IMG/VR virus record: IMGVR_UViG_3300009180_000080
Span: 1-42,121 of that record
Reading direction: 5' to 3' (one strand)
DNA: 42,121 nucleotides
Source: a virus
Shown: piece by piece, positions 5,521-42,097 of the stretch
How the letters are laid out: each line of letters starts with the position of its first letter
How positions within the stretch are numbered: the first letter of the stretch is position 1
Position numbers and translations under genes: made by a program
The notes under the pieces: model-generated
What the model was told of the DNA's origin: nothing
Seen by the model: the letters and a program-made list of their open reading frames with translations, nothing else
The model's database searches: none

Positions 5521-6421
5521 ATTTTTCTTTATAATTTTTAACAGTCAATTCTTTTTGTTTAGCCTCAATCATGACATCAATGTCTAAACCATAAGTTTCA
5601 ATTTTGTTAAAAATATAATCACTGTGTGCTTGTAATTTTACTTTTAAATTTTCATTTAATGCTTTAGACTCACTGTAGTGTACAACTGGTCTAATATCAC
5701 CCCATGTAGTAGTAGCTAATGTTAAAGCTTCTTGTTCTGTTTGATCTCCAGTACAGAACTTGTGATGGTGATAATCGAAGACGATTGGTATGCCAATTTC
5801 TTCATGTACGAGACTGTAAAGATCGGTTGTTGAATACATAACCGCTTTATCATCATTTTCAACAGTAAGTCTGTTCTTGATAGCATCTGGAAGTGTTTTA
5901 AAGTTTTTAATAAATGTTTTACTACTGTTAATTTTGTCTCCATAAGCAGCACCCATATGAATATTAATTTTATTGTAAGGTGTTTCACTCAACCCCATAT
6001 AGTCCATAAGATCACTGTGTGCTTGTAATTCACTAATACTATTTTCAACAACATGTTTGTGTGGACTAGTAAGTACTACAAACTGACCAGGATGTGTAGT
6101 CAAACGCATTTCATGTTTAGTAGCAAAATCACCACAGTGTTTTAAAATAGTTTTAATTTCCTCAATGTCTTTCATGTTGTGCCAATCTACTTTATTTGCC
6201 CATGGAATAATACTAGATGACAAACGAAACAACATAATATCATTTTCTAAGTTCCATTTCAAATACAATTCTAAGTCTTTAACATTTTGTAATGACAACT
6301 CACTAACATATTCAAGACCCTTTTTATCTAAAGTAGCTTTCTTCAAACTACGATTTGTAGTAATCTTTTGTTTTTTCAACGTTTCGTTGATACACGCGTA
6401 ACCATAATTTATCTTTTTCAT
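5507..6421 (-). CDS. uvsE: UV damage endonuclease (UvsE/UVDE family)
   Basis: 304 residues, close to the usual UVDE length. The protein begins with the family signature INYGYACINETL. Later TIM-barrel metal-ligand motifs are visible: LFRLSSSIIPWA, LTTHPGQFVVL, INIHMGAAYGDK, LTVENDDK and FDYHHHKFC. UVDE enzymes nick DNA 5' to pyrimidine dimers and other lesions, starting excision repair. The neighbouring ATP-dependent DNA ligase upstream fits a repair pair. The start is preceded by AAAAAGGTT, an SD-like leader. Confidence 0.92.
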   Translation of the reverse strand: MKKINYGYACINETLKKQKITTNRSLKKATLDKKGLEYVSELSLQNVKDLELYLKWNLENDIMLFRLSSSIIPWANKVDWHNMKDIEEIKTILKHCGDFATKHEMRLTTHPGQFVVLTSPHKHVVENSISELQAHSDLMDYMGLSETPYNKINIHMGAAYGDKINSSKTFIKNFKTLPDAIKNRLTVENDDKAVMYSTTDLYSLVHEEIGIPIVFDYHHHKFCTGDQTEQEALTLATTTWGDIRPVVHYSESKALNENLKVKLQAHSDYIFNKIETYGLDIDVMIEAKQKELTVKNYKEKFGLF

Positions 6422-6443
6422 AACCTTTTTGTTTTATTTTTTA

Positions 6444-7535
6444 TTATATATCAAATCTATCTACATTAACAACTTTTGGAAAACGAGGTATTCCATCAGC
6501 TGTTAGTTCAAAGTATTTTACTGTTGCTTTTTTACCTATTAATTCTTGTTTTTGTGACCATAACTCAATTAAATACTCTTGAGTACCATTTACAGTACTA
6601 AAGAACATATCGCCTTTTTTAGTCTTAAATAACATTTGACCTACCATACCAGTTAACTTACCACTACCTTCATATACATCTAAAATTTCAAACTCATCGT
6701 CTTCAAATGTCTTGTATTTCAATAATGTTTTACTTCGTTTATTTTCATAGTCACCACTCAATGTACGAATCATCAAACCTTCATAACCTTGTTCAATATA
6801 CTCACTGTATTTACTTAACATATCAGCTTCACTTTGAGCTAAATGTGTTTCAACCATTATAATGTGTTCGTCATGATAAAATTTGTATAACGCAATCTTC
6901 CTAACATCGAATCGGCCGACATTAGATGGTACGTCGTAGATCCAATATTGGATGAGTTTTTTCGATTCTTCCAAATCTTGGCTTGTTGGTTTCGTTTTTT
7001 TAACAAGACTACAAATCGTGTTGAAATTATTTTTGTCTCTGTAATATAATTCTCCATCTAATATTAAATCTGGGTTTGCTAAAAAATGATGTTTTAATGA
7101 TTCAAATATATGAGGTGCACTAATGATTTGTTTACCATTACGAGTCCACATACCATCTGATTTAACTATACATCTAATTCCATCTAATTTTGGTTGTACA
7201 TTTACTGGATATGTCAATTTTGCTTTATAGTCTTCATACTTGTGAGCTAACATTGGTTTAAATGGTGTTGGTTTATCAACATCATTAATGTCTTCAAAAC
7301 TACCTAATTCTAAACGTTTACGTCTCATAGCAGTTGCTTCAGCTAATGCTTGTTCTTCAGCTGTGGTGCTATTCTTTTTATTAATGTTTTTAGGATAACA
7401 AACAGTCCACTCAGCTTCAGTTTTAATTCCATCTACATAACCACTAATTGTTCTGTATTTGTCAGCTTCAACCTCAATTGTCCACTCAAGCACTTTTCCG
7501 CTTACGGCCTTTTTGTATATTGTTTTTAACTTCAT
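6444..7535 (-). CDS. ATP-dependent DNA ligase with N-terminal WGR-like domain
   Basis: 363 residues. Residues 1-70 resemble a WGR-like fold (KAVSGKVLEWTIEVE, then the TTAEEQALAEA linker) seen in some phage ligases. The nucleotidyltransferase core starts at about residue 95. Motif I is QPKLDGIR with Lys116 as the AMP acceptor; then DGELY (motif III region), EGLMIR (motif IV) and LLKYK (motif V). The C-terminal part (DVYEGSGKLTGMVGQMLFK) is the OB domain. It seals nicks during replication and repair. It overlaps the 96-residue gene by 50 nt and precedes uvsE. Confidence 0.92.
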   Translation of the reverse strand: MKLKTIYKKAVSGKVLEWTIEVEADKYRTISGYVDGIKTEAEWTVCYPKNINKKNSTTAEEQALAEATAMRRKRLELGSFEDINDVDKPTPFKPMLAHKYEDYKAKLTYPVNVQPKLDGIRCIVKSDGMWTRNGKQIISAPHIFESLKHHFLANPDLILDGELYYRDKNNFNTICSLVKKTKPTSQDLEESKKLIQYWIYDVPSNVGRFDVRKIALYKFYHDEHIIMVETHLAQSEADMLSKYSEYIEQGYEGLMIRTLSGDYENKRSKTLLKYKTFEDDEFEILDVYEGSGKLTGMVGQMLFKTKKGDMFFSTVNGTQEYLIELWSQKQELIGKKATVKYFELTADGIPRFPKVVNVDRFDI

Positions 7536-28882: not shown

Positions 28883-28957
28883 TGGACCCTACAGGACTTG
28901 AACCTGTGACCTTCGCATTATGAGTGCGCTGCTACTAACCAACTGAGCTAAAGGTCC
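28883..28957 (-). tRNA. tRNA with CAT anticodon (Met or Ile2)
   Basis: 75 nt. Acceptor GGACCTT pairs with AGGGTCC, the anticodon loop is CTCATAA on a GCGCA/TGCG stem, and the T-arm is ACAGG-TTCAAGT-CCTGT. No CCA is encoded. The overall sequence resembles bacterial tRNA-Ile2, in which C34 is changed to lysidine, as well as elongator tRNA-Met, so the amino acid is left open. The D-loop GGTTAGTAGC carries an insertion relative to the usual form. Confidence 0.9.
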
Positions 28958-28965
28958 ATTATTAG

Positions 28966-29037
28966 TACTCCTAACGGGATTCGAACCCGTGACTTGTCCG
29001 TGAAAGGGACATGACTTAACCGCTTGTCGATAGGAGC
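28966..29037 (-). tRNA. tRNA-Glu (TTC)
   Basis: 72 nt. Acceptor GCTCCTA/TAGGAGT (one G-T pair), anticodon loop CTTTCAC on a TGTCC/GGACA stem, T-arm ACGGG-TTCGAAT-CCCGT. No encoded CCA. Confidence 0.93.
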
Positions 29038-29041
29038 AAAT

Positions 29042-29143
29042 AAAGTAAGATGGTGAGGTGTTAGGGGCTTTGACCCACTCGGCTTTCCTCTCCACCCATA
29101 GCCTTAACTAGTATTGGATGACGGCTACATACCACCTTACTTT
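29042..29143 (-). ncRNA. Unassigned structured element in the tRNA cluster
   Basis: This fills the 107-nt gap between tRNA-Glu and tRNA-Gln, the size of a long-arm tRNA plus spacers. The ends pair over 13 bp (29042-29054 with 29131-29143, one G-T). Inside are TAGCC/GGCTA (29099-29103 with 29123-29127) and a T-arm-like AGTGG-GTCAAAG-CCCCT. The segment GGAGAGGAAAGCCGAGTGGG resembles the 5' end of tRNA-Ser. I could not fold a regular tRNA. It may be a degenerate Ser/Leu/Tyr-type tRNA or another small RNA. Confidence 0.4.
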
Positions 29144-29144
29144 G

Positions 29145-29215
29145 TTACCTCCCAAGGATTCGAACCTCAATTAATTGGACCAAAACCAATTGTCCTGCCG
29201 TTAGACGAGGAGGTA
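29145..29215 (-). tRNA. tRNA-Gln (TTG)
   Basis: 71 nt. Acceptor TACCTCC/GGAGGTA with the U1-A72 pair typical of tRNA-Gln, anticodon loop TTTTGGT on an AATTGG/CCAATT stem, T-arm GAGG-TTCGAAT-CCTT. It reads CAA, the preferred Gln codon of an AT-rich phage. The HNH gene stop lies only 3 nt upstream of its 5' end. Confidence 0.93.
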
Positions 29216-29217
29216 AT

Positions 29218-29853
29218 TTATTTTTTATCTTTATGTTTATACAAAATATCTTTTAATTCTGGAAAGTATTTTATTATAAATTTATCTGCTCTTTGTGGAT
29301 GAATACCTGTTACTTTTTCTACTTTTAATCTCCATCCTCGTTGAGTAAAATCAATTTCAGCTTTTATAATGTTATTAATTCTTTCAGTTAATTTTTTATT
29401 ATATTTTGATTCTTCTTTTTTTATTTTAGGTATTTCTATTTTATTGGTTTGACATATTTTTAATACTCTTTTATAGTTACCTCCTGAATTATCCATTCCT
29501 AGAGATACTAGTGTTTGATTTATATTTTTGTTATTTTTTAACGCTTCTATTATTTTTTCATCACTTATGTTTGTTTTTTGTTTTATACTTTTCTTTTTTC
29601 TAAATGTAGATGTTAATGAATGACAATTAGGACATAAAAATTCTAAATTTTCTTTTTTATTATTCCAATTATCTCCATCTTTATGTTCTATTTCTAATGT
29701 AATTTTTTCTCCCATCCATTCATTAATACCACATTTATTACATTTATATTCAAACACATTATTTAATATAATATATTTTCTTATAGAACTACCATATTGT
29801 AGTTTTATTTCTCCAGATAAAATTTTATCTATATTATTTTTAATATCTACCAT
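29218..29853 (-). CDS. HNH endonuclease inserted in the tRNA cluster
   Basis: 211 residues from the ATG at 29853; an upstream ATG at 29871 would read through the class 2 motif. YKCNKCGINEWMGEKI, LEIEHKDGDNWNN and LEFLCPNCHSLTSTFRKKKS make a complete HNH core with two zinc-binding CxxC pairs and catalytic His. The C-terminal half is Lys-rich and looks like a DNA-binding extension. It splits the tRNA array between tRNA-Gln and tRNA-Trp, in the manner of a mobile free-standing nuclease. Confidence 0.9.
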   Translation of the reverse strand: MVDIKNNIDKILSGEIKLQYGSSIRKYIILNNVFEYKCNKCGINEWMGEKITLEIEHKDGDNWNNKKENLEFLCPNCHSLTSTFRKKKSIKQKTNISDEKIIEALKNNKNINQTLVSLGMDNSGGNYKRVLKICQTNKIEIPKIKKEESKYNKKLTERINNIIKAEIDFTQRGWRLKVEKVTGIHPQRADKFIIKYFPELKDILYKHKDKK

Positions 29854-29858
29854 CAATA

Positions 29859-29866
29859 ATAAATAT
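29859..29866 (-). promoter_or_regulatory. Class 2 start-site motif ATATTTAT
   Basis: ATATTTAT, then TATTG, then the ATG of the HNH gene at 29853. It decides the start codon, since any earlier start would include it. Confidence 0.5.
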
Positions 29867-29892
29867 GTCAAAGATTATAAAAAACATTCGAG

Positions 29893-29967
29893 CAGGCATG
29901 GAGAGATTCGAACTCCCAACAAACCTGGTTTTGGAGACCAGTGCTCTACCAGTTGAGCTACACACCT
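29893..29967 (-). tRNA. tRNA-Trp (CCA)
   Basis: 75 nt. Acceptor AGGTGTG/CATGCCT (two G-T pairs) with discriminator G, typical of tRNA-Trp. Anticodon loop CTCCAAA on a CTGGT/ACCAG stem, T-arm GGGAG-TTCGAAT-CTCTC. The CCA anticodon reads UGG and is consistent with UGA acting as stop. Confidence 0.93.
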
Positions 29968-29975
29968 GTATATTT

Positions 29976-30015
29976 TGCGGAAGATGTAGGATTTGAACTT
30001 ACGTTACTATTCCGC
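29976..30015 (-). pseudogene. 40-nt tRNA-Gly-like relic (acceptor and T-arm only)
   Basis: The 5' GCGGAA pairs with 3' TTCCGC, as in bacterial tRNA-Gly. A T-arm GTAAG-TTCAAAT-CCTAC and the A discriminator follow the normal order. The D-arm, anticodon arm and variable loop are absent, so it cannot decode. It is either a deletion relic or a minihelix kept for another purpose. Confidence 0.6.
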
Positions 30016-30032
30016 CACCTGACTAATTTTAA

Positions 30033-30226
30033 ACCAAAGTAGAGTAGAGTTAAACTTTTGCTGAAAAGTTTTAATTTTTGAGTTTTTCTTTTTTAAATCT
30101 TGAATTTTGAATCTTAAGGCATTCATCAATATCAATATCAAAGCATCATGTTATCGTTAGATAGTAATCTCTATCAGAGACGTCCGAAGACGGTGCTACT
30201 CATTCAACTCTACTCTTTAAATTGGT
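30033..30226 (-). ncRNA. Candidate structured RNA of about 195 nt
   Basis: The ends form a long stem: ACCAA and AGAGTAGAGTT (30033-30037, 30041-30051) pair with AACTCTACTCT and TTGGT (30206-30216, 30222-30226). Internal hairpins on the minus strand are CGTC-TTCG-GACG (UUCG tetraloop), CTCTGATAGAG or the alternative GATAG-AGATTA-CTATC, and AAACTTTT-CAGC-AAAAGTTT. No ORF with codon-like content lies inside. It abuts the stop of the 142-residue gene and precedes the tRNA-Gly relic. No known RNA family recognised. Confidence 0.5.
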
Positions 30227-30654
30227 TATATCATTGTGAGAGCATTATATGCCTCAATTTCTTCTTGAAGAGTTTCAATTTGCTCTTCTAATTCCTTTAC
30301 TCTAGCATCCTTATCAAACAGGTTCATATAAGCTACATACTCGATTTCATTACCATCTCCATATCTGTCACGATGTACACCTTCTTTGGTTTCAACATTA
30401 CGAAGTTTAGCAGCCATGCTTTTTAATTCACCTAATTTAAAAATCTTACTAGCAATACCTGTGTTTGCAATGTGGATTTTAGTTTTTAAATCAATTAACT
30501 CATTAGTTAATCTAACCCATTCATCATAAGCAACAGAAGGAGCATAACCAGTAGATCCTTTTACAGTTGAATTAAACTTACTGAAACGAATATACATTTC
30601 ATCAATTTGCTTTACAAGTTTCTTTTTGTGTTTTAATGCTTTTGTTAAATTCAT
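30226..30654 (-). CDS. Helical protein, possibly DIP1984-like
   Basis: 142 residues. MNLTKALKHKKKLVKQIDEM, then ELIDLKTKIHIANTGIASKI, and a coiled-coil end (ELEEQIETLQEEIEAYNALT). The beginning and the LKTKIHIANT segment recall the DIP1984 family of helical proteins, whose function is unknown. It lies between tRNA-Met/CAT and the structured RNA, so it is probably processed out of a mixed tRNA/mRNA transcript. Confidence 0.72.
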   Translation of the reverse strand: MNLTKALKHKKKLVKQIDEMYIRFSKFNSTVKGSTGYAPSVAYDEWVRLTNELIDLKTKIHIANTGIASKIFKLGELKSMAAKLRNVETKEGVHRDRYGDGNEIEYVAYMNLFDKDARVKELEEQIETLQEEIEAYNALTMI

Positions 30655-30670
30655 ATACTTTATTTTTAGG

Positions 30671-30737
30671 AGCGGACCACGACTCGAACGTGAATTAAAG
30701 GTTATGAGCCTTTTGTGTTACCATTACACTAATCCGC
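30671..30737 (-). tRNA. tRNA with CAT anticodon (Met-type)
   Basis: 67 nt, short because of a small D-arm (GTGTAATGGTAACAC). Acceptor GCGGATT/GGTCCGC, anticodon loop CTCATAA on AAAGG/CCTTT, T-arm TCACG-TTCGAGT-CGTGG. There is no C1-A72 mismatch and no GGG/CCC anticodon stem, so it is not a classical initiator. Second CAT tRNA in the cluster; one of the two may be Ile2. Confidence 0.85.
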
Positions 30738-30740
30738 TAG

Positions 30741-30813
30741 AGCCACCTTCCAGAATCGAACTGAAAACCTTCTCATTACAAGTGAGATGCTCTACCAATT
30801 GAGCTAAGGGGGC
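30741..30813 (-). tRNA. tRNA-Thr (TGT)
   Basis: 73 nt. Acceptor GCCCCCT/AGGTGGC with one C-T mismatch, D-arm TAGCTCAATTGGTAGAGC, anticodon loop CTTGTAA on TCTCA/TGAGA, T-arm with TTCGATT. Only 3 nt separate it from the next tRNA. Confidence 0.92.
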
Positions 30814-33997: not shown

Positions 33998-35611
33998 TTA
34001 GTATCCCATACCCATATCCATCATTGGTTGTGCATCATCTTTCTTTTCTTCAAAAATAACACTTTCTGAAGTTAAAATAGTACTAGCTACTGATAATGCA
34101 TTTTCTAGTGCTACTCTTGTTACTTTAAATGGATCTAAAATACCAGCTTCATAAGCATTAACTACTTCTTTAGTTTTAGCATTGTATGTTAAGTCTACTG
34201 ATTTGATTAATTCCTCAATTGTATTAGGTGCTACTTCTAATCCTGCGTTTTCCATAATTTTATAGAATGGACTACTAATGGCTTTAGCAATAATCTTTTT
34301 ACCTAAAGTTTCTTGAGTCATACCTAAAGCAATATTAGCTAATGGCCATCCACCACCGGGAATAATGCCTTCTGCTAAAGCAGCTTTAGTTGCATATAAT
34401 GCATCTTCAACACGATCTCTTTTTTCTTTAATTTCAAGATCACTGTTTCCACCAACTGAAATGATAGCCACACCACCGCTTAATTTAGCTAAACGTTCTT
34501 GTAGTTTTTCTTTTTCAAACATTGATTGAGCATTGTCAATTTGATTTTTTAATTCTTCTGCTCTTGTTTCTAATGCTTCACTACTTCCTTTACCATCAAC
34601 AATAGTTGTTGATTCTTTAGTAATAGTTACCATTCTAGCATTACCTAAACACTGTTCTAACATAGGACCTACAACTTTTTCAAGTTTAATACCTTGTTTT
34701 TTAACACTAACAACTTGTCCACCTGTTAATGTAGCCATGTCTTCTAATAATAAAGTTCTACGATCACCATAGTCTGGTGCTTTAACAGCACATGCTTTAA
34801 TTACTCCTCTTGATTTATTAATTAATAATACTGCTAATGCTTCCTCACCAAATTCCTCAGCTACAATTACTAATGATTTATTTTCACCACTTGCTTTTTG
34901 TAGTACAGGAACTAGTTCAGCTGCTGAATTAATAACACCGTCTACTAATAAAATCATTGGATCATTTAATACTGCTTTCATTGTAGTATTGTCAGTTACA
35001 AAATAAGGTGATTTATAACCTCTTTCAAACTGCATACCTTCAACAAAGTCTAATATTGTTTCACCTGTTTTACTAGATTCAATAGTAACAATACCATCAT
35101 ATCCAACTTCTTCAATTGCATCTGCTAATAAACGACCAATTTCTTCATCATTATTTCCTGAAATTGTAGCAATGTTAAATAACTGTTCATTTGAAGTAAC
35201 AGGAACAGATAATGCTTTTAATTCATCAATAACTTCAGTTACTGCTATTTCCATTTGTTGTTTTACTTCAACAACATTAGTACCTTTTTCAATTAATTTC
35301 ATTCCTTCTTCAATCATAACAGTTGCTAAAAGAGTAGAAGTAGTAGTACCATCACCAGCTTCATTCGCTGATTTTATTGCTACTTGTTTTACAAGTTGTG
35401 CTCCAATATTTTCAATGTCATCATCTAATTTATGAAAACTTTTAGCTACACTAACACCATCTTTAGTTGCTTTAATAGTTCCATCAGCTTCATTAATTAG
35501 TACATTTCTGCCGCCTGGGCCTAAAGTTGAACTTACACTAGCATTCAATTTAAGAATACCATCTAGTAATTTTTGTTTTAATTCGGTTCCGAATAATGTT
35601 TTTGTGCTCAT
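33998..35611 (-). CDS. groEL: GroEL-like chaperonin (Cpn60)
   Basis: 537 residues, full length. LGPGGRNVLI, KDGVSVAK, AGDGTTTSTLLATVMIEEG (ATP site), the apical domain with EGMQFERGYKSPYFVTD, and RVEDALYATKAALAEGIIPG (with the catalytic Asp) are all intact. It ends MMDMGMGY rather than the usual GGM repeat. Lys-Tyr-Asn-rich sequence and AT-rich codons match the rest of the phage, so it is not a recent host fragment. Overlaps groES by ATGA. Presumably folds phage proteins, as in phages EL and OBP. Confidence 0.97.
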   Translation of the reverse strand: MSTKTLFGTELKQKLLDGILKLNASVSSTLGPGGRNVLINEADGTIKATKDGVSVAKSFHKLDDDIENIGAQLVKQVAIKSANEAGDGTTTSTLLATVMIEEGMKLIEKGTNVVEVKQQMEIAVTEVIDELKALSVPVTSNEQLFNIATISGNNDEEIGRLLADAIEEVGYDGIVTIESSKTGETILDFVEGMQFERGYKSPYFVTDNTTMKAVLNDPMILLVDGVINSAAELVPVLQKASGENKSLVIVAEEFGEEALAVLLINKSRGVIKACAVKAPDYGDRRTLLLEDMATLTGGQVVSVKKQGIKLEKVVGPMLEQCLGNARMVTITKESTTIVDGKGSSEALETRAEELKNQIDNAQSMFEKEKLQERLAKLSGGVAIISVGGNSDLEIKEKRDRVEDALYATKAALAEGIIPGGGWPLANIALGMTQETLGKKIIAKAISSPFYKIMENAGLEVAPNTIEELIKSVDLTYNAKTKEVVNAYEAGILDPFKVTRVALENALSVASTILTSESVIFEEKKDDAQPMMDMGMGY

Positions 35612-38926: not shown

Positions 38927-39811
38927 TTAGAAATTAAAGAATTTGGCAACATTTGGATTCAAAGATGGAAATGAGTTAGGTCCATAAATATCATCATAAA
39001 TCCCTTGTAGTTTATTTAGTAATACATTGTTAAATCCACTATCAGTATCAGCGTATTTTTCAAGGAACTCATGAATAAACGGAGGGCTATCATTAGTAAA
39101 GGCGAGAACCTCAATACCATATGGATTTTTCTTAAGTGGTATGAACTTTATTTTGTCTCCTTCAACAATACATGAATATTGTTTATCTAAACCTTTAAAT
39201 CTAATAAGATCATTTGTAAATATTGCGGCCTTACTATTAATAGGACATTTATTTCCTAATTTACTGAATATTTGACCACTTGCTGGTTTAGACGCTATAT
39301 AATTATTAATTTGTTTTACTCCAGTTGGTTTAGCTAATTTACTGTAGTGTGTGTTTTTTACTTCATTTCTAAAATCTTGAATTTTTTTATCGATTTCTTT
39401 TTTAGGTTTACCATACATAATATCCATAATTAAACCCTTACCAAATACAGCATACATTGGTGTCATATTTGATTTCATCACATCCATTCCTTTAATGTCT
39501 AATTCTTCTGTTGGAACACCTTCTTTATTTACAATAAATTGAGCGTATCTTCTTTTACCAGCAAAATAACCTCTTTCGATCAAAACCTCCTGCTTCAACT
39601 CAAAATATTCGTTATCGCAGTTGAATAATTTCTTACAAAGATCTTGGAGAAAAGGTTTAGTTTTTTCTTGGTAGTCAGAGGTTATTTCAAGACCTACTGA
39701 AACCATTTCTTCACGGTTTTTTGTATTTACATTTGGATTGCGATGAACAATCAAATCCTTTAGTTCAAAAAATAATGAATCTGTATCACTGGTTATTATT
39801 CTGTCTTTCAT
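38927..39811 (-). CDS. 43: DNA polymerase family B, C-terminal part of a split gene
   Basis: 294 residues. It begins MKDRIITSDTDSLFFE, so the catalytic motif C (DTDS, 9-12) is nearly the first thing in the protein. FAGKRRYAQFI (KRRY 86-89) is the thumb-proximal KKRY motif; the rest is the thumb domain. It lacks motifs A and B, which are on the product of 40334-42031. Both parts must associate for activity. The start lies 26 nt inside the GIY-YIG gene. Confidence 0.9.
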   Translation of the reverse strand: MKDRIITSDTDSLFFELKDLIVHRNPNVNTKNREEMVSVGLEITSDYQEKTKPFLQDLCKKLFNCDNEYFELKQEVLIERGYFAGKRRYAQFIVNKEGVPTEELDIKGMDVMKSNMTPMYAVFGKGLIMDIMYGKPKKEIDKKIQDFRNEVKNTHYSKLAKPTGVKQINNYIASKPASGQIFSKLGNKCPINSKAAIFTNDLIRFKGLDKQYSCIVEGDKIKFIPLKKNPYGIEVLAFTNDSPPFIHEFLEKYADTDSGFNNVLLNKLQGIYDDIYGPNSFPSLNPNVAKFFNF

Positions 39812-40310
39812 GTCTTTCTATTGCTGATTTACTCATTTTTTGTTTTGTTTCGTTGGTTTTGATTTTACCAAAATGTCCGTGATTTTCTCCTGTTGGCCAT
39901 GAATCAAATACTTTCCCTTTTGATGGGTGGTTATTTTTATCAAATCTTTCTTTTGCTTTTTGACTTCTTAGTTGTTTTTCTTCTTCACTCATTTTTCTTC
40001 CTTTACTAGGTGATACTCTACCTTTTATTTTTTCACTAATCTTATCTTTAGATTCTTGTTTATGAAACGATAATCCATTTCCTCCATGAGTAATATTTTC
40101 AAGTTTGAATCCCCATGACTTGTATTGAGCTATCCAATATTTTTCCCAGTATTCCCAATCTTCTGTTGGAACTTCATCTATGTAAATCATTTTTACATCT
40201 TTTCCAAAGTTATTACAATGAACGTTTATTCTTGTTTTTGGATTAGGAGATTTACCTATGTAAATAGGAATGTTATTTCTATGTATTTCGTAAATAATAG
40301 TAGTACTCAT
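39786..40310 (-). CDS. GIY-YIG endonuclease between the two polymerase parts
   Basis: 174 residues. TIIYEIHRNNIPIYIGKS (YIG at 17-19), then KTRINVHCNN (Arg), TEDWEYWEKYWIAQYKSWGF (Glu helix) and HGGNGLSFHKQE form the nuclease domain. SKDKISEKIKGRVSPSKGRK and NETKQKMSKSAIERHERQNN are NUMOD3-type repeats. It has its own class 1 promoter and overlaps the C-terminal polymerase gene by 26 nt. Its separate start and stop, and the absence of room for an intron core, make it a free-standing endonuclease. Confidence 0.9.
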   Translation of the reverse strand: MSTTIIYEIHRNNIPIYIGKSPNPKTRINVHCNNFGKDVKMIYIDEVPTEDWEYWEKYWIAQYKSWGFKLENITHGGNGLSFHKQESKDKISEKIKGRVSPSKGRKMSEEEKQLRSQKAKERFDKNNHPSKGKVFDSWPTGENHGHFGKIKTNETKQKMSKSAIERHERQNNNQ

Positions 40311-40318
40311 ACGCTAAT

Positions 40319-40347
40319 AATGTAACATAAATATTAGATTTCTCCAA
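40319..40347 (-). promoter_or_regulatory. Class 1 promoter TTGGAG-17-TACATT at the polymerase split
   Basis: -35 TTGGAG (40342-40347) is made of the last codons (Leu-Gly-Glu) of the polymerase N-terminal gene. 17-bp spacer, -10 TACATT (40319-40324), then 8 nt to the ATG. ATATTTAT (40327-40334) overlaps it. Confidence 0.55.
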
Positions 40348-42031
40348 GCTCTTTTGCTATTTCTTCATTTACAAAGTTGATTGATTCTTGTATCAGTCTT
40401 TGACCTGTTAGTGTGATTGCTTTACTTATGAATAAGTTACCATCACTATATCTAAATGAGTTAATAGCGAATACACCATAAACGTCATTCAACTTGATCT
40501 TCATTGAGTGTTGTCTGCGATTGTAAAATTCACCTAATTCTTTATCACCTGACTTGTAAGCTTGTTTCATTTTATTTTTAAAGTCTTTACGTTTATCAAA
40601 CCAATCATTTAAAATTTCTACAATAATAGAATCTTTATCAGTTCTGAATATAGTTCCATTAGCACTCATTCTCATGTTTTTTGTTTCAACAAACTTGATT
40701 ACATCACCTACACTCATTTCCATTTGTTGGACTTTACGATCTAGTGTTACTCGTTCTACAGTTAATATTTTATTAGGATCAAGTTGTTTTAAATCATTTA
40801 AACCCCATTGATTGTCATACTTATCACGATTTTTAATACAAGCTACTAATGTTTCAATACCCATATTAAGATTACGAATAATAGAAGGATATAAACTTGT
40901 AAAATCTAAGTCACTTACCCATTCATACAAACCAGGTACTGGATCTTTTAAATAACCACCAGCGTATTCTTCATTTGGATTTCTTAACGCTGGATTCATA
41001 GTTGTAGGTTTGTTGGGACTTACGATGTTTTTACGACGTAAATAAGTTAATATGGCACCTTCATTGAGAGCAGTAGCATAATAAATATTTTCGTACGCTA
41101 CGTGGCAAAGATGACATATATTTTTAGTTAGTTCTATAAATTGAAGTTTATTATCTAACGCTACTAAGATTTCAACGTCACGTAAGTTGTAATCAATGAA
41201 TTTATGAACGTCTTCTTTAAACAAACGATCTAAACTACCTTCATATTCAATTTTTCCTAATTTAACATACTTTTCACCAATTGCTGCTAAAGCATAACTT
41301 GGTTCTTGAGACATAATAAATTTTTTATGAAGTAACATATAGTCAAGATGATTAACTCCACAAATTCTAACTGTTGATTCTTCTCTAAAGTCTCTGACTT
41401 GAACACGTTTTAATGGAGACAAACGTTTTGCTTGAGCGTCTCCTACTACTTGACACATTCTGTGATAAAGATAAGGTATATCAAAAAACTGACTGTTCCA
41501 TCCTGAAATAATTGTTGGGTCACATTCTTCAAATTTATCTAAAAATCCCATTAATAATTCACGTTCAGTATTATATGGAATAATTTCTTTACTATCTTCT
41601 TCTACTGGGTTGATTTGTCGTTTTTCATCTAAAATCAAACAGTAGTATTTTTGTAATGTGACATCATACAAAGCAACAGATGTTATTTTCATTGGTGCTC
41701 TTTTAATGTATTCTGTTGTAAGTGCACCACCAATTTCACACTCAATGTCTAAATAAACAACATTATGAAATTGAGGAGCGTCATCACTGTCTTTGTAAAT
41801 GTCTACTAGACAATTTGTTTCAATTGGAATGTCTATTTCAAAAAATTCGTTTGGTTTTGTTTTGTCCATTGATTTTGTTGGACTAACTCGTCTTCCATCA
41901 ATTGTAAAAAACTCACCTTCTTTGTCTAGTTTATAATAAGTTGGAGTGTAATCTACTTCTTGCCATCCTAATTGATCGTCTCTTATGATTGCTTTTTTAG
42001 TGTGGTAATTATAATCTATAACTTGATACAT
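40334..42031 (-). CDS. 43: DNA polymerase family B, N-terminal part (exonuclease, motifs A and B)
   Basis: 565 residues. Proofreading motifs: Exo I DIE (95-97), Exo II NSQFFD (179-184), Exo III YNLRD (281-285). Polymerase motif A is DFTSLYPS (376-383) and motif B is KLNDVYG (513-519). It stops after EIAKELGEI, before motif C. With the second part the total is 859 residues, similar to T4 gp43 (898). The truncated end abuts a GIY-YIG gene, so the gene appears split at the fingers/palm boundary. A TATATT box lies 7 nt before the ATG. Confidence 0.95.
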   Translation of the reverse strand: MYQVIDYNYHTKKAIIRDDQLGWQEVDYTPTYYKLDKEGEFFTIDGRRVSPTKSMDKTKPNEFFEIDIPIETNCLVDIYKDSDDAPQFHNVVYLDIECEIGGALTTEYIKRAPMKITSVALYDVTLQKYYCLILDEKRQINPVEEDSKEIIPYNTERELLMGFLDKFEECDPTIISGWNSQFFDIPYLYHRMCQVVGDAQAKRLSPLKRVQVRDFREESTVRICGVNHLDYMLLHKKFIMSQEPSYALAAIGEKYVKLGKIEYEGSLDRLFKEDVHKFIDYNLRDVEILVALDNKLQFIELTKNICHLCHVAYENIYYATALNEGAILTYLRRKNIVSPNKPTTMNPALRNPNEEYAGGYLKDPVPGLYEWVSDLDFTSLYPSIIRNLNMGIETLVACIKNRDKYDNQWGLNDLKQLDPNKILTVERVTLDRKVQQMEMSVGDVIKFVETKNMRMSANGTIFRTDKDSIIVEILNDWFDKRKDFKNKMKQAYKSGDKELGEFYNRRQHSMKIKLNDVYGVFAINSFRYSDGNLFISKAITLTGQRLIQESINFVNEEIAKELGEI

Positions 42032-42038
42032 TATATAT

Positions 42039-42067
42039 AATATAACAAAAAGAGCTGGTAAAACCAG
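42039..42067 (-). promoter_or_regulatory. Class 1 promoter CTGGTT-17-TATATT fused to a terminator
   Basis: -35 CTGGTT (42062-42067) in the hairpin loop and arm, 17-bp spacer, -10 TATATT (42039-42044), 7 nt to the polymerase ATG. Confidence 0.7.
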
Positions 42068-42071
42068 CTCT
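42051..42071 (-). terminator. Terminator hairpin before the polymerase gene
   Basis: AGAGCTGGT-TTT-ACCAGCTCT on the minus strand followed by TTTTTG. It lies 26 nt after the stop at 42098. Confidence 0.8.
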
Positions 42072-42097
42072 CTTTAAAATTTTTATTAATTTTACTA

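Follow-up and report, generated by a model that had tools for sequence, protein, structure and literature searches.

A T4-type phage DNA polymerase gene divided beside motif C around a GIY-YIG gene, with signs of recurrent homing in its family

How does a replicative DNA polymerase come to be encoded in two genes that part next to its catalytic motif C, and can such an enzyme still work? The question is raised by the window, the 42,121-base virus record IMGVR_UViG_3300009180_000080 analysed here over its whole length, in which a polymerase part, a nuclease gene and a second polymerase part follow one another on the minus strand (Table 1). The same record contains a phage-encoded chaperonin of the Cpn60/TCP-1 family (33998-35611; Pfam E 2e-50) and a cluster of six tRNA genes (28883-30813).

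Table 1. Features of the divided polymerase locus and its surroundings in the window
Feature	Position	Strand	Remarks
N half, T4-type family B DNA polymerase (exonuclease, motif A, motif B)	40334-42031	-	565 aa
GIY-YIG/NUMOD3 homing-endonuclease-like gene	39786-40310	-	174 aa; Pfam, PHROG, family alignment
Overlap of nuclease 3' end with C-half start, different frames	39786-39811	-	26 nt
C half (motif C DTDS, remaining palm, thumb), own ATG	38927-39811	-	294 aa
TATTTAT, possible late-type promoter	40327-40333	-	begins 23 nt upstream of nuclease start; consensus match only
TTTTTGTTATATTATATATA, possible early-type promoter	42032-42051	-	adjoins N half on upstream side; by inspection only
Terminator-like hairpin upstream of polymerase gene	42046-42076	-	

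The coordinates that the original prediction gave for the two polymerase genes were exact, and its placing of the cut between motif B and motif C agrees with both profile matches and motif positions. The N half matched the Pfam families DNA_pol_B_exo1 (E 8e-21) and DNA_pol_B (E 7e-25) and positions 30-567 of the 856 in the DNA polymerase profile PHROG 262 (E 2e-112). The C half takes up the same profile at 571 and follows it to 837 (E 2e-41); the Pfam scan gave no polymerase match for this half, only a sub-threshold match to a herpes small-capsid family. Both window halves are open and keep all motifs, which we take to be the exonuclease motifs and motifs A and B in the N half and motif C (DTDS) and KRRYA in the C half. 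As had been claimed, motif C starts eight residues into the second gene, the residues MKDRIITS preceding DTDS. Three codons before the C-half ATG there is an in-frame TAG, so that this ATG is the sole usable start and a longer form is impossible; it sits within the nuclease gene, in its final 26 nt. By its domains, its catalytic motifs and the RB69 gp43 fold of an intact relative (L087, see below), the window polymerase belongs to T4-type family B (gp43).

The gap was said to be filled by a GIY-YIG gene of 174 residues, and GIY-YIG (Pfam E 4e-6) and NUMOD3 repeats (E 5e-10) were indeed found in it, together with a match to the homing endonuclease profile PHROG 314 (E 2e-10). The gene retains the residues that never vary across the family alignment (Y, YIG, R, H, E, N and GG), which indicates a conserved catalytic domain. 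The nuclease start follows the N-half stop after 23 nt, and no gap follows the nuclease. Searches for relatives of this nuclease gave none in viral_contigs and one weak match in phages, and no relatives of the C half were found in bacterial and archaeal genomes.

The original prediction also gave the nuclease its own promoter. What stands of this is the TATTTAT upstream of the gene; a scan of the window for sigma-70 promoters showed no excess (14 versus 20.1 expected). Of the 27 TATTTAT sites on the sense strand, nine are found no more than 45 nt upstream of a gene start (versus 6.8% of the strand), and the motif is present in 15 of 22 gaps between N half and insert in split alleles. Judged from these patterns, a separate nuclease promoter is plausible. 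Sequences similar to TTTTTGTTATATTATATATA were seen by inspection upstream of other window genes. Two motifs, TTTTTGTTATATTAT and CATATTTAT, are repeated upstream of several window genes and are possibly the early and late promoters of this phage.

An alignment with intact polymerases had been proposed to see whether residues are missing at the junction, and none are. In Microcystis phage Mel-JY01, whose polymerase is intact, the match to the N half (through residue 565) ends at 74862 and the match to the C half (from residue 2) begins at 74866, one codon apart. In the closely related loci L001 and L002 the frame is open across the junction (..ELG-T-N-KDYVVTADTDS.. and ..ELQ-T-D-KDYVVTADTDS..), where the window reads ..ELG-E-I-stop followed by M-KDRIITSDTDS. 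Intact counterparts of the locus thus exist, and the insertion is precise. In an AlphaFold model of intact L087 (mean pLDDT 86.5), the cut is predicted to fall in the loop 570-575, which joins helix 538-569 to strand 576-579, with motif C directly after it at 580-583. RB69 gp43 was the closest solved fold for this model (TM 0.74-0.81, best E 8e-52), and by sequence alignment the cut corresponds to the position between its residues 612 and 613.

The close relatives of the window polymerase (79-85% identical) are intact, L087 and L081 being its intact sisters. To survey the family, every related locus whose best C-half match reached at least 38% identity was collected from the matches listed, giving 162 loci with 103 distinct sequences. 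Among these 103, there were 77 intact, 25 split and 1 partial sequences, and all splits fall in the same loop before motif C; as one of the scans was led by the nuclease and only matches listed were used, sampling was not random and 25 of 103 is no frequency in nature. Every one of the 25 split C halves has its own ATG, 8-23 residues before DTDS. The N halves end in tails such as NTPKGCGNKKK, KKFNLAPHS or EELKKVFDL, which are alike among split alleles and not found in intact ones.

The inserts differ in kind. On a contig of its own, L003 is divided at the same place by another GIY-YIG gene (211 aa, NUMOD1), and genes of this kind occupy 18 of the 25 inserts (including L363, assigned by Pfam domains, L162, with a different catalytic end, and L152, with a stop). 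Three inserts (L306, L322 and L338) hold a second GIY-YIG-type gene (PHROG 314, no Pfam match), and the window insert, whose NUMOD3 nuclease lies outside the subfamily of most split relatives, is a third kind. L241 carries an endonuclease-VII-like protein (PHROG 1035, E 2e-13), the insert of L305 is cut by the contig end, and L221 has no insert at all, with 6 nt between stop and ATG in the same frame. When a profile of the L003-type nuclease was used for scanning, all 19 of the best 80 loci listed that had at least 43% identity lay inside a split polymerase gene (in a few, a contig end truncates the flanking polymerase parts); 58 of the other 61 had no polymerase piece nearby. In some split relatives 189 to 1574 nt with other ORFs follow the nuclease, up to five ORFs in L119/L149.

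Several loci deserve separate mention. In L221 (500-700 of a 148.6-kb contig), an in-frame TAA is followed by the ATG and the tail resembles that of split alleles; this is either a nuclease-free split or else a stop mutation or read error. The nuclease of L122 (2352-2990; L122/L152) has a stop at codon 55, with both polymerase halves open. Passenger ORFs between nuclease and C half were seen in L119/L149, L124, L127/L157, L306 and L338; L306 and L322 share a near-identical 99-aa ORF despite an identity of only 76% between their polymerase backbones, and ORFs of 60 aa that resemble each other occur in L147 and L149. The intact alleles L330, L331, L372, L231 and L369 carry a flank (QRLLQESIKNMN or similar) like the one in split alleles; they may possibly have been re-fused, or may be where the cassette was first hosted. 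The intact L001 polymerase has a GIY-YIG-like gene (5897-6616) directly downstream, followed by an MDNFDLKK ORF like those within some split genes. By inspection, L071 (3116-5804) contains a cyanophage-like polymerase broken before motif B by an HNH-like ORF of 193 aa.

Split and intact alleles can be 94-100% identical far from the junction and about 50-65% identical around it, where split alleles resemble one another rather than their intact counterparts. On a tree of the polymerase away from the junction (101 of the 103 sequences, leaving out the partial L015 and one intact fragment of < 450 aa), the split state required 19 changes, a number that shuffled labels also gave (17-25, mean 22.5); it is thus scattered almost at random over the backbone tree. 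On the tree of the flanks (98 sequences, 22 split), 5 changes sufficed, compared with 15-22 (mean 20.0) in shuffles. The difference between flank and backbone DNA identity, in percentage points, was -37.4 for split-intact pairs (n=5) versus -0.3 for intact-intact pairs (n=9) at > 95% backbone identity, and -31.1 (n=11) versus -1.9 (n=112) at 85-95%, with the pairs sharing ancestry and hence not being independent.

The divergent tract begins just past the conserved GQR, some 20-30 codons before the N-half end, and stops 50-80 codons into the C half. In L322, identity to intact L330 is 100% past codon +70 but falls to 41-80% within +50, a stretch over which L322 matches split L306 at 100%; the L322 contig may be chimeric. 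The same flank/backbone pattern was found, without an exact donor, in L124/L225, L147/L307 and L150/L344. The nucleases can also be more alike than the polymerase backbones around them (89 versus 64% amino-acid identity for L147/L150). The dip in the flanks, the flanks shared by split alleles and the likeness of the nucleases are as predicted by homing with co-conversion of the flanks. Such co-conversion is indicated in many relatives; in the window, the sequence is only suggestive of it.

There, identity to L087 is 81.5% in the backbone and 61.4% in the flank, and to L081 77.6% and 68.3%, while in all four intact pairs tested from the same clade the flank was at least as similar as the backbone. 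Among 339 intact-intact pairs of like backbone identity, drawn from all sequences of the set, 16 were as low as window/L087 and 62 as low as window/L081. The window does not group with other split alleles on the flank tree, and no donor for its insert or flanks was found among the related sequences searched. By analogy with the relatives, the window insert was likely imported by homing.

The missing donor would also fit a real two-chain split whose flanks diverged by fast adaptation to the split state and not by co-conversion. We consider this improbable, since split flanks from different backbones are alike, up to 100% in L306/L322. Another way to account for the locus is that the insert is an intron (group I or II) carrying a nuclease ORF and that splicing restores the polymerase mRNA. 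The precise insertion would fit this, and other phage polymerase genes are reported to be interrupted by introns and endonuclease genes (PMC2993671, PMC12363816). However, Rfam scans at the gathering threshold detected no intron, either in the window or among 16 related loci, and relaxing the cut-off to E 5 for the window region and to E 0.5 for seven split loci brought none to light. There is also no non-coding space for an intron core, given the 23 nt before the window nuclease and none after it, and relatives hold whole further ORFs in the gap. The split-specific N-half tails and the fresh ATGs of the C halves likewise speak against splicing. On the Rfam scans and the lack of non-coding space we rejected the intron, which is very unlikely; a spliced mRNA, named by the original prediction as one thing that would overturn it, is unsupported. 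Joining of the halves after translation by a split intein, as in Nanoarchaeum equitans PolB and as proposed for phage MIJ3, is suggested by the position, motif C of PolB being a known intein site at which the N. equitans gene is broken (PMC549080). Yet there is no room for intein domains, as N halves extend no more than a few dozen residues past the palm helix and the window C half starts eight residues before DTDS, and no intein family in Pfam matched. This possibility was discarded as well and is scarcely conceivable.

The polymerase might also be a decaying pseudogene whose place another polymerase has taken. The window is a fragment, so that another polymerase gene could lie outside it, and the N half of L158 is frameshifted. 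Against decay, the window keeps all motifs, and dN is well below dS in both halves, in the window and in relatives. For window/L087, dN/dS was 0.127/0.98 and 0.153/1.91 in the two halves, and for the split/split pair L152/L153 it was 0.057/0.57 and 0.056/0.65; values for split versus intact alleles also include the time before the split. A second complete polymerase gene, the other finding that was to count against the prediction, was absent from nine larger related records (97-180 kb, none certified complete), each of which has one PolB, split in four of them; the window itself is a 42-kb fragment. Neither PolA nor PolIII was found in the seven related records tested. Decay with replacement is countered by these observations and is most improbable. 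The simplest reading, we infer, is that the two chains assemble into a working polymerase. All these results agree with the original prediction of a polymerase divided between motifs B and C, a resident GIY-YIG nuclease and a palm put together from two chains; the recurrence of the split in one loop of many relatives, and its cassette-like behaviour there, go beyond that prediction.

The explanation in which we have good confidence is that a free-standing GIY-YIG gene split a T4-type polymerase into two chains and that recurrent homing with co-conversion operates in the family. A free-standing GIY-YIG homing endonuclease gene would insert into the replicative polymerase gene at the loop that leads from the long palm helix to the beta-hairpin bearing motif C. 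The halves would be made separately, the C half starting from the ATG in the terminal part of the nuclease gene, and would presumably join non-covalently as one polymerase. In the wider family, several nuclease types would enter the same loop of intact alleles by homing, and repair would copy the nuclease plus roughly 20-30 polymerase codons upstream and 50-80 downstream, judging by the co-conversion footprint in relatives. As the nuclease would be copied together with polymerase flanks, a ready-made split junction would spread between polymerase backbones. Somewhat more tentatively, we favour the broader view that a homing cassette, consisting of a nuclease and flanks fitted to the split (C-terminal tail, start codon), spreads among T4-type phages and makes two-subunit polymerases cut at the catalytic motif. 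Several nucleases would share the loop, passenger genes would travel inside, and the split would persist nuclease-free in at least one phage (L221).

Only eight residues separate the cut from the catalytic aspartate pair of an essential enzyme, the replicative polymerase. If the two-chain enzymes work, the family B palm can be broken at its most conserved motif and still function, and a core replication enzyme can be turned into a two-subunit one by a selfish gene time and again. Split/intact pairs that are nearly identical away from the junction, such as L124/L225 and L147/L307, open the cost, the assembly and the reversal of the split to direct test.

The original prediction pointed to split gene 43 in Aeromonas T4-like phages, and this precedent was traced to Aeromonas phage 25, in which the GIY-YIG gene seg43(25) is reported to lie between genes 43A and 43B, the halves co-purifying and being polymerase-active (PMC2988022). 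Phage 25 and the window share a T4-type polymerase in two parts with a GIY-YIG gene between them. However, the phage 25 gene is cut before motif B, which according to its record is in 43B, and the window gene after motif B, adjoining motif C; 43B also has a group I intron by the record note. A split of the phage 25 type does not describe the window, where motif B is in the N half. In Aeromonas phage Aeh1, mobE is reported to split nrdA into two cooperating genes (PMC2988022), so that a free-standing homing endonuclease again breaks an essential gene in two, but the gene is that of a ribonucleotide reductase and the nuclease is of the HNH type. The pol-c inteins of PolB, at YGD|TDS, and the two-piece PolB gene of N. 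equitans (PMC549080) resemble the window in placing a homing element at motif C of a family B polymerase, whereas the N. equitans halves are rejoined by protein splicing and the window has no intein. Endonuclease genes or small ORFs are also reported to interrupt the polymerase genes of Jug phages, of the OM43 phages MEP401/402 and of Pseudomonas phage MIJ3 (PMC12363816, PMC10580990, PMC6892783); these are other phage groups, and MIJ3 is described as having an intein. Openly readable titles and abstract openings in the literature contained none that pointed to a split at motif C by a free-standing nuclease or to spread as a cassette. Genes split by free-standing nucleases are already known; what differs here is the cut at motif C and the proposed spread as a cassette.
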